Source of the DNA: Citrus sinensis
Lineage: Eukaryota; Streptophyta; Magnoliopsida; Sapindales; Rutaceae
Direction: 5' to 3'
DNA: 64,000 nucleotides
Assembly (NCBI RefSeq): GCF_022201045.2
Contig: NC_068559.1
Location: forward strand, 29,395,501-29,459,500
The translations under genes were made by a program, and so were the position numbers. Numbering within the stretch: the stretch's first letter is position 1; each line of letters starts with the position of its first letter. Shown here in pieces: positions 29,924 to 32,811 of this stretch. Below the pieces are notes generated by a model that saw only the letters and a list, made by a program, of their open reading frames with translations, did not search any database and was not told the DNA's origin.

Positions 29924-32811
29924 TCAAAGTTCATCAAAAGCGTTGGCGGGGGATTTAGGAGGAGCTAGGAAGCTCTTGTACCAAAAAAAGGAGTCCTTGG
30001 GGTATCTTTGCAAGTTATCCTTATGATCAACATAAACCATCCCAAATCCAACGGTGAATCCAGCATCCCATTCGAAGTTATCCAAAAACGACCACGCATA
30101 GTATCCCTTCACATGCACGCCCTCCCTGCAGCAATTTTTCAGTTTGAAGTGATATTTCCTCAATACATTACTTAATTAATTAATTTTTACCACATAATCC
30201 AAGACCGACTAACAGTACTACTTCTTCATTAATTAATTAATATATAATAATTTATTCAAAAAACACTCACTTGATGGCTTCCAAAAGATACCAGAGATGC
30301 TCTTGATAGCATTTTATTCTCAAATCATCCTTGCGGGCCTGAGCCTGCTCTACATCCTTTGCATCAGCAACTCCTGCAAAATTTATAATAGGAAACATTT
30401 TACATTTATATATACATATAATAATTATAATCATAATTATCTAATAATTAGCTATGATAATGTACTTTTTTTAACTTACCGTTCTCAGTGATATAAATTG
30501 CAGGATTGTTGTATTTACTCTTTATATACAGCATGAAATCTTTGATTCCCTTGGGGTAGAGGAAAATCCATGGCAAAGTTGTCTGTAAAATAAAATTAAA
30601 AATAGAACAAGCATGCATATATTTATGATAATCAGTTTTTTTTTTTTTTCCTTGGATGTATATTATAAATAAAAAGTAATTGCTGTGTGATTAAAAGCAG
30701 AGACAAAGGCAGAAAAAGTATACCGGTGTACCAATGGGATTACCATCTTTGTGGGCTGCGGGAGGAATGAATAATTTCGTGATTAAATTACAATCATTTG
30801 CATGAATTAATAATAATAAAATTTGCAAATAAATATAAGTTTAATTATGGATGGATGGATGGATGGATGGTGAAGCCTGCAGAGACTACTTACTTGAGAG
30901 AGTGACTCGGCTATCTGTGGAGTAACTTATTGTGTCGGAGTTGGAGGTTGAAGAAGAAGAATCTTCAGCGTACATTGGTGCGTAGTAATTTATGCCAAGA
31001 AAATCATACGACCCTTTGAGCATCTCGGATTCGGTTTTACTAAAATTGGGCAGTCGACTCCCCACTAAAGTTGTCATCACCTCAGGATACTCACCATATG
31101 TAATTGGATGAGCGAACCTGCAGCAACCGCAATGAATACTGTTAATGAAAGAAATCTCAGCTTAACAGGTGTACATGTAGGGCCGTGTGGTGCCCGCCTC
31201 ACCATCCGAAGAGAAAGTCTAGCATCCTGGAGGCCGTCTCTTGGTCAGCAGGTGATTCGGTTTTCGGTATGAACCATTGAGTCACAATTGTAATTCCAAT
31301 TTCTCCCTTCTGATGACCCTGATACTTTTCCTTGTACAATTTGACAGCAGTTGCATGGGAAAGAAGCAAATTATGAGATACGATGTAGGGCTCTGTGGCA
31401 GAGTCACCGGCTGCACAATTACTTCCCAAAGAACTTGAACATCGACCCGGTGCATACACACCAATTGCGTACCCACCAATGCTGATTGAATTTGGTTCTG
31501 CCATTGTCGCCCACTGCTTTACTCTGTCACCAAATGTCTTGAAGCAAAAGTCTGCATAGTCTCCAAAATCTTTCCTGTTGTTGTTGTTGTTCATCAACAA
31601 TTCAATATTATGATCATCATCATCTCATTCCATTAATTAATTTCACTATCTAGTATCTGCAGAGCTGAGCTAATCAATTAATTAATTAGTAGTGATTTTA
31701 CAGGCGACCAACTACTTACACTATCTCGGAGCTTAAGAATCCACCGTATTCATCTTCTAGCACTTGTGGAAGATCCCAATGGAACAATGTCACAAATGGC
31801 TTAATAGCATTTGCAATAAGCTCGTCGATGAGATTATTGTAGAATTGGACTCCTAACGGGTTCACTCCTCCGCTAATTTTCCCCTCTAAAAAGGGAAAAG
31901 AAAAAAAAAATCAATATCACGCATAGGAATGGGCGGCCTATATAATTAATTGGTATTAATTTGGAGTATTGGAGCTGGAGGAGTGTGAAATGAGAAGATC
32001 TTACTGGGCAATAGTCTTGGCCATGAAATGGAGAATCTGAAAGAATCCAATCCAGTTTCTTTCATCAATTTTATATCCTCCTGAAAGAGATCAATTCTTG
32101 TTTAATGTATATGATCCTGACGATCAGTTTTATATGAATTTGGATTTTTGAATTTTGACTTTTGAGTCGATCTGCCGAACTTACCTTGTATCGATGATAA
32201 AAATCAATTGCAACATTTGCATTGCTACCATCATGGATTTTTTCTGCAAATACACGTGGCAGTAAGACAGGTACTTAATTTGCTTCTGATTCTAAATGAA
32301 AAGTAAATGAACTAGACAGGTTAGAAATGTGAAACCTGGGTGATTGTTGGCGAAAGTATCCCATATACTCGGACTTTTGCCATCTATATTTACGTTTCCT
32401 TCTGCCTGAATGATTTTGTTTTATGAAGGGAATTAATTAGCATGCAATAAATGACTAAGCGGCTACACGCACACACATAAATTAACTCAAAAGTAAAGGG
32501 GAGAGTTATATATACACGCACGTATGCACGAATGTGTTCTCTATATTTTAATTTTGTAAAATTTCAATTTCACCAATATTAACTACGTACAACAAAGCAT
32601 GTACTGTAAACGGATAAAGATATACCGCGTAAGCGGATGTCCCGGCTCCAAATATAAAACCGGGCGGAAAATTACTCCTGTTGATTGGCATTTGTATCTC
32701 TTCTGCTTCTGCGGCAGCATCAGCACGGCAACTGCGACTGGTGGCTAACACTAACAAGCCAGCGAGGGCCCCGATGCTACATATTAACAATAACTGATTT
32801 TGAATTGTCAT
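29924..32811 (-). CDS. GH1 beta-glucosidase-like protein with altered glycone site (array copy 5, 530 aa)
   Basis: Eleven exons (minus order): 32626-32811, 32336-32405, 32185-32243, 32005-32080, 31720-31885, 31203-31574, 30894-31117, 30724-30755, 30480-30582, 30271-30373, 29924-30125. They total 1593 nt. The 166-nt fifth exon equals exons 5+6 (78+88) of its sisters, and the 372-nt sixth exon equals exons 7+8 of copies 3 and 4 (256+116), so two introns are gone exactly. The signal peptide is about residues 1-30. Catalytic Glu212 and Glu428 (IYITENG) remain. However, the glycone-binding Gln of SAYQ is Ala62 (TSAYA), and the Asn before the acid/base Glu is Ala211 (ATMAEPN). FHWDLPQ and FLDNFEW are normal. 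The C-terminus is extended and ends AFDEL, resembling ER-retention tetrapeptides. It groups with copy 2. No frame break was seen. It may be a pseudoenzyme, a transglycosidase or an enzyme of shifted specificity. Confidence 0.92.
30845..30870. repeat. (ATGG)n microsatellite in an intron of copy 5
   Basis: About six ATGG units lie about 25 bp beyond the donor of the 30894-31117 exon, in the intron that follows it. Confidence 0.75.

Follow-up and report, generated by a model that had tools for sequence, protein, structure and literature searches.

How might a GH1 protein act when both of its catalytic glutamates are in place and two of the residues that normally hold the sugar are gone? A gene of Citrus sinensis raises this question. 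It lies in a 64-kb stretch of DNA, hereafter called the window, to which all positions refer unless a genome position is indicated. What tips a retaining glycosidase toward hydrolysis or toward transfer has yet to be settled, and natural proteins combining an altered −1 subsite with an intact catalytic pair would serve as test cases.

Gene Structure and the Two Substitutions

The GH1 gene occupies positions 29924–32811 on the minus strand, with its ATG at 32811 and its stop codon ending at 29924. In the spliced model, 11 exons totalling 1593 nt encode a protein of 530 aa. The ten introns are all of the GT-AG type, and neither a stop nor a frameshift interrupts the coding sequence. A home-made spliced aligner, with the focal protein as template, returned the same exons, in agreement with the clean 530-codon frame over 11 exons described in the initial annotation. 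The exons and the codons of interest are as follows.

32626..32811, minus strand: exon 1, with the start codon, a hydrophobic N-terminal segment, and a stretch of 11 residues; spliced model and aligner
32626..32628, minus strand: codon 62, GCG (Ala); Gln (CAG/CAA) in the 17 paralogue models covering the site
32336..32405, minus strand: exon 2, 23 residues; spliced model
32185..32243, minus strand: exon 3; spliced model
32005..32080, minus strand: exon 4, with FRFSISW and Arg120
31720..31885, minus strand: exon 5, 166 nt, with HWD and His166
31203..31574, minus strand: exon 6, 372 nt, with TMAEPN
31499..31501, minus strand: codon 211, GCA (Ala); AAT/AAC (Asn of NEP) in paralogues
31496..31498, minus strand: codon 212, Glu, the catalytic acid/base, from the sequence
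30894..31117, minus strand: exon 7, with INYY, Asn353, and Tyr355
30724..30755, minus strand: exon 8, 32 nt
30480..30582, minus strand: exon 9, with ITENG; codon of the nucleophile Glu428 at 30486-30484
30271..30373, minus strand: exon 10; spliced model
29924..30125, minus strand: exon 11, with a stretch of 10 residues, Trp475, Glu482, Trp483, and Phe491; tail ...ANAFDEL and stop

The protein carries a single Pfam domain, PF00232, which places it in the GH1 family (522.1 bits against a curated cut-off of 22.6; profile positions 3–448 of 453). Two hallmarks of the family are missing. Ala62 stands in place of the Gln of the SAYQ motif, which contacts O3/O4 of the sugar, and Ala211 in place of the Asn of the NEP motif (here TMAEPN), which precedes the acid/base Glu and contacts O2. 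Conversely, the catalytic pair formed by Glu212 (acid/base) and Glu428 (nucleophile, in TENG) is complete, the HWD and DNFEW motifs are kept, and Y355 and W475 of the −1 subsite are present, as are H166, N353, E482, W483, and F491, which are canonical. The spliced model, with its GCG and GCA codons, thus bears out both the two replacements and the persistence of Glu212, Glu428, HWD, and DNFEW that had been read from the letters alone.

Wherever paralogue codons could be read, they were CAG or CAA at position 62 and AAT or AAC at position 211, so that the focal gene differs from them by at least two bases at the first site and at least three at the second. Codon 62 is the last of exon 1, directly before intron 1, and of the 17 other paralogue models that extend across this codon, 11 have an intron at the same place. 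The initial annotation had envisaged that another exon 1/2 junction might restore the Gln. GT/GC donors lying between −90 and +240 relative to the end of exon 1 were paired with AG acceptors lying between −200 and +60 relative to the start of exon 2. Thirty pairings, counting the annotated junction, keep the frame and are free of stops; Gln appears in none of them, and splice rescue within these ranges is rejected.

The gene also differs from its neighbors in its exons. Exon 5 (166 nt) corresponds to two exons of 88 and 78 nt in the four other genes of the array described below (W8k, W15k, W23k, and L009), and exon 6 (372 nt) replaces two exons, of 256 and 116 nt in W15k and W23k and of 253 and 116 nt in W8k and L009. 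These fused lengths indicate that the 11-exon focal gene lacks two introns that its neighbors have in their 13-exon models, the frame being kept. At the other end of the protein, the tail of 13 residues encoded at 29924–29965 terminates in -DEL, an ending found in 1 of the 24 gene models extended to their stop. K/HDEL is the signal for retention in the endoplasmic reticulum (ER), which the -DEL tail resembles; a literature search on combined terms retrieved no paper on FDEL as an ER-retention signal.

A Tandem Array of Five GH1 Genes

Five GH1 genes stand in tandem on the minus strand. The focal gene is the rightmost, and the leftmost crosses the left edge of the window. The four other members all have the Gln and the NEP motif.

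23547..27143, minus strand: array paralogue W23k, aligner-model span with approximate ends
15394..18843, minus strand: array paralogue W15k, aligner-model span
8399..12406, minus strand: array paralogue W8k, aligner-model span
1..1579, minus strand: 5' part of array paralogue L009, the remainder lying left of the window (genome C4:29393468-29397079)

W8k is the nearest by identity among those compared (61.3%). A CTG-rich tandem repeat (about 44/91 bases) lies at 2414–2743, between two genes of the array. A hidden second copy with the Gln and the Asn was sought by a protein search of the same genome (299.7 Mb, 11 contigs; 81 of 144 candidates scored, 100 matches listed). Among the matches listed there is no near copy: the exons of the gene itself match at high identity, and other places reach at most 71% identity, this value extending over 34 residues, and at most 66% for the NEP exon.

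Ten chosen frames of the 104 in the window were scanned against Pfam. Six gave no match; the others comprised a lectin receptor kinase, another stretch of kinase sequence, a BCD1 domain, and the gag of a retrotransposon, and none of the ten corresponds to a UGT or acyltransferase gene. With ten of the 104 frames covered, the absence of a sugar-donor gene cluster from the window is a weak negative. The lectin receptor kinase is an 831-aa frame at 48553–51048 with B-lectin and protein kinase domains, apparently intronless. Between 58001 and 64000, GC content rises to 52–54% and a 384-aa frame (58780–59934) matches the gag; together, these features probably denote an LTR retrotransposon at the right edge of the window. 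Rfam and tRNA scans of the 64-kb window gave no match.

Conservation of the Two Sites among GH1 Relatives

The protein was aligned with 104 other rows, comprising 20 paralogues, 80 prokaryote loci (the best 80 of at least 592 relatives), and four loci from viral contigs. The prokaryote loci were found with two peptide patterns, from the YHRYKED and RFSISW regions; column invariance within these patterns is therefore inflated, and both Q62 and N211 lie outside them. Columns were counted only if at least 75% of the rows were filled. L011 and L016 were dropped from the 104-row count, L028 was left out of the alignments, and the models of L016, L018, L019, L021, and L027 stop short of codon 62.

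Twenty-three columns are strictly invariant among the 104 other rows, which include the best 80 of at least 592 prokaryote relatives. The focal protein keeps 21 of them, among which E212, E428, R120, Y355, and W475, and breaks only Q62 and N211. Six additional columns reach at least 98% conservation, and the protein conforms to all of them. With the same sampling of prokaryotes, all 100 other rows with a letter at position 62 have Gln, and all 103 with a letter at position 211 have Asn. Taken separately, the paralogue models with a letter have the Gln in 17 of 17 and the Asn in 22 of 22, and the prokaryote (best 80 of at least 592) and viral-contig loci in 84 of 84 and 83 of 83, respectively, the partial locus L142 lacking the Asn site. 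When each row in turn was left out and compared with the others, 101 of the 105 broke no column and three (L018, L061, and L074) broke one; the focal protein alone broke two. Given the invariance at both sites, the double change is more than chance.

The contrast is weaker when paralogues only are counted, where too few rows cover Q62 for it to be included: the focal protein breaks three columns (N211A, A299T, and Y487F), and W8k and L017 break seven each. Several other genes of this genome depart from the family pattern. L018 (G000:C2:28665500-28672500) has Gln for the −1 subsite His of HWD and keeps the Asn and both Glu; in the 104-row comparison, no plant row besides L018 and the focal protein departs from a column that is otherwise invariant. 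L024 to L027 (C3:45.26-45.27 Mb and C8:1.48-1.52 Mb), which from their FEL motif we take to be the At/Os6 genes of this genome, have Leu for the Trp of FEW in four of four and Ile for Asn353 in three of four; the models of L025 and L026 contain one stop each, which may be modelling faults. L010 and L011 (C6:23.279 and 23.286 Mb), about 7.2 kb apart, have modelled proteins that look identical and would represent either a recent tandem duplication or an assembly repeat. Beside L015 lies the GH1 fragment L016 (C3:4.248-4.256 Mb), a likely pseudogene whose model contains two frameshifts as well as two stops.

Selection and Phylogeny

Selection was estimated by codon maximum likelihood on seven genes and 469 codons, with one tree in which the fork between the focal gene (T5), W8k, and L009 was left open. 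The focal branch has an omega of 0.212 against a background of 0.183. A separate omega for this branch brings no gain (LRT 0.49), and an omega fixed at 1 is rejected (LRT 45.5, one degree of freedom). The dN/dS check proposed in the initial annotation has thus been run, and its result is far from 1. The W8k branch has the highest omega of the three tested (0.28; LRT 3.77 against one ratio). In the protein tree, the focal protein groups with W8k and L009 (support 100/99), and its end branch (0.36) is similar to those of these two sister genes (0.34 and 0.37).

The intact frame, the omega of 0.21, an end branch of the length seen in sister genes, and the 21 retained columns of 23 together make simple decay appear unlikely, which supports the first impression drawn from the clean frame. 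A more recent event would be harder to see: the gene might be an early pseudogene that still looks intact, or a loss-of-function allele of the single genome analysed. As omega is averaged over the whole history of the branch, late relaxation is possible. This account would have to explain why two codons, at otherwise invariant sites, changed by at least two and at least three bases and both to Ala, whereas the other invariant columns, the reading frame, and the ten GT-AG introns were left intact. We consider recent loss quite improbable.

To this tree were added two solved relatives from the PDB, 9jtt, labelled 'Beta-glucosidase', and the β-primeverosidase 3wq4, which we take to be from tea. 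The first joins the group of the focal protein, W8k, and L009 (99/98), and the second comes next (89/94); the tree contains no named At/Os6 reference. From the position of 9jtt inside the group, the focal lineage seems about as deep as the split from the 9jtt gene.

The proximity of 3wq4 (57.2% identical to the focal protein) bears on a reading in which the enzyme remains a hydrolase and acts on a different glycone, the two Ala making room for a substituent at O2 or O3/O4. The sugar could be, for instance, a 2-O-rhamnosylated glucose, as in the citrus neohesperidosides, or an acylated sugar. The β-primeverosidase is a disaccharide-specific GH1 enzyme. Citrus fruits can hold 2-O-rhamnosyl-glucosides, and the genome has the look of Citrus, with a terpene-synthase exon almost identical to the (+)-limonene synthase 5uv0, which we take to be from Citrus sinensis. 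Both substitutions shorten side chains that contact O2 or O3/O4, and E482, W483, and F491 retain their canonical identity. Against it, the β-primeverosidase itself retains both the Gln and the Asn, and we regard a hydrolase of substituted sugars as unlikely, if less so than recent loss.

Roles of the Two Lost Residues

The part played by the two residues is documented in several articles. In the complex of rice Os4BGlu18 with gluconolactone, contacts to O2 come from N193 and the nucleophile, those to O3 from Q46, H148, and W465, and those to O4 from Q46 and E464 (PMC7817009). As N193 directly precedes the acid/base E194 (PMC7817009), it would correspond by motif to Ala211, and Q46 would correspond to Ala62. 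The roles assigned to them in the initial annotation, Asn for O2 and Gln for O3/O4, agree with these contacts. In Ttβ-gly, the β-glycosidase of Thermus thermophilus, the 2-OH is bound by Asn163, a residue that also interacts with the acid/base Glu164, and the 3-OH by Gln18 (PMC6467970). From its place before the acid/base Glu, Asn163 would likewise be the cognate of Ala211. Asn163Ala is among the mutants of conserved −1 subsite residues with raised transglycosylation (PMC6467970), and is also named in PMC4803828. The mutant set reached yields of up to 82%, against 36% for the wild type, with lower catalytic efficiency; the 82% is the best of the set and is not given for N163A specifically (PMC6467970, citing Teze 2014). 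Of the other articles, PMC5247548 concerns a +1 subsite residue, and the excerpts of PMC9127867 and PMC5296326 contain nothing on the Gln and Asn in question. A GH1 protein with Ala at both positions was not found in the titles and abstract openings of the literature searched.

Possible Activities of the Protein

On sequence grounds, the focal protein, under selection, can hardly be an ordinary β-glucosidase, because the side chains for O2 (Asn) and O3/O4 (Gln) are now methyl groups. Its activity is probably different from the usual release of glucose and may be the transfer of sugar. Purifying selection has preserved the acid/base, the nucleophile, and those other −1 residues that we looked at, and for this reason we favor the view that the chemistry is retained and that ordinary glucoside hydrolysis is lost.

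The best mechanism, which we put forward tentatively, is that of a natural transglycosidase. Glu428, with the help of Glu212, would attack a donor whose leaving group departs readily, for instance an acyl-glucose, to form a glycosyl-enzyme. Water would then be a poor second substrate, because the modified −1 subsite would stabilize the transition state less well, and a bound acceptor would therefore take the sugar instead. Catalysis, transfer, and the identity of donor and acceptor are all conjectural here. In favor of this mechanism, of the 23 columns invariant in the comparison (including the best 80 of at least 592 prokaryote relatives) only the two sugar contacts are broken while the catalytic pair is kept, and published GH1 engineering leans toward transglycosylation. 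Evolution may even have made the same move as the engineers, keeping the catalytic pair and cutting the −1 hydrogen bonds at the O2 and O3/O4 anchors, a parallel that we consider less likely than not.

Several considerations argue against a transglycosidase. First, the double loss may simply kill activity: in a GH20 enzyme engineered on the same principle, mutants that retained under 0.05% of wild-type hydrolysis had practically lost transfer as well (PMC8004761). Second, QM/MM calculations on Ttβ-gly attribute to Asn163 and Gln18 small effects on the transition states of hydrolysis and transfer, similar on both deglycosylation paths (PMC6467970). Third, the focal protein appears to group with the tea β-primeverosidase, whereas the plant GH1 transglycosidases characterised so far fall mostly in the At/Os6 group (PMC11782082). 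Fourth, the late relaxation compatible with a branch-averaged omega applies here as well.

If activity is lost altogether, the protein could be a pseudoenzyme in which sugar binding and turnover have disappeared, the fold serves a ligand or protein partner, and the two Glu persist by chance or for structural reasons. Altered active sites do occur in natural GH1 domains, as in domain 1 of PDB 8in1, which we take to be inactive, and the -AFDEL tail singles out this protein (one of 24 gene models). With its O2 and O3/O4 contacts gone, the protein should bind glucosides less tightly and turn them over less well, judging from the contacts in Os4BGlu18 (PMC7817009), the extent of the weakening being inferred. 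However, GH1 pseudoenzymes are recognised by the loss of one or both catalytic Glu, and domain 1 of 8in1 has Asp for the acid/base, whereas the focal protein has both Glu and 21 of the 23 invariant columns. A pseudoenzyme is a possibility to be taken seriously, on which we would place slightly less weight than on transfer.

Another conceivable outcome is that the Glu pair has been reused for an acid/base reaction on a hydrophobic plant metabolite, the polar sugar contacts having become methyl groups and the acid/base pair having stayed. This non-glycosidic chemistry is very improbable. It has no precedent in the titles and abstract openings of the GH1 literature that we searched for other questions, and the protein keeps E482 and W483, whose cognates in Os4BGlu18 bind O4/O6 and O3 (PMC7817009). 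Both this chemistry and recent decay are less likely than a transglycosidase, a pseudoenzyme, or a hydrolase of substituted sugars.

A transglycosidase, if confirmed, would reveal a second, active-site route to plant GH1 sugar transfer, outside the At/Os6 group and readable from sequence. Should the protein be active, its two-residue signature would allow similar enzymes to be sought in plant genomes; should its role be binding, it would represent a GH1 pseudoenzyme keeping both catalytic glutamates. In annotation based on the two Glu only, it would be labelled an ordinary β-glucosidase.

Comparison with Known Systems

Myrosinases (1myr and 1e4m) offer a natural change of the NEP motif in plant GH1, as in the focal protein. 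They differ in that their acid/base Glu is replaced by Gln, whereas the focal protein keeps this Glu and changes the preceding Asn. The TINQL protein of Sinapis alba is presumably a myrosinase; the motif is cited in PMC12430181.

Domain 1 of 8in1 has Pro at the place of the Gln and DDP for NEP, with Asp as the acid/base, and it keeps the nucleophile Glu. Klotho, another GH1 family sequence, resembles the focal protein in its altered active-site residues.

The closest relatives with a solved structure, 3wq4 and 9jtt (58.8% identity for the latter), lie on neighboring branches of the tree and share the catalytic pair. Unlike the focal protein, both keep the Gln, in SAYQ and ASYQ, respectively, and the NEP motif. 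The plant GH1 transglycosidases SoGH1 (soapwort) and Os9BGlu31 (rice) presumably keep them as well. They are described as transferring sugar from acyl-sugar donors, and SoGH1 is a natural plant GH1 transglycosidase (PMC11782082). Plant transglycosidases differ from the focal protein in belonging mostly to the At/Os6 group (PMC11782082). The substitution itself is matched by Ttβ-gly Asn163Ala, with the same replacement before the acid/base Glu and the catalytic pair kept (PMC6467970, PMC4803828). That protein is a bacterial laboratory mutant with Gln18 kept, whereas the focal protein is natural and has lost the Gln as well.
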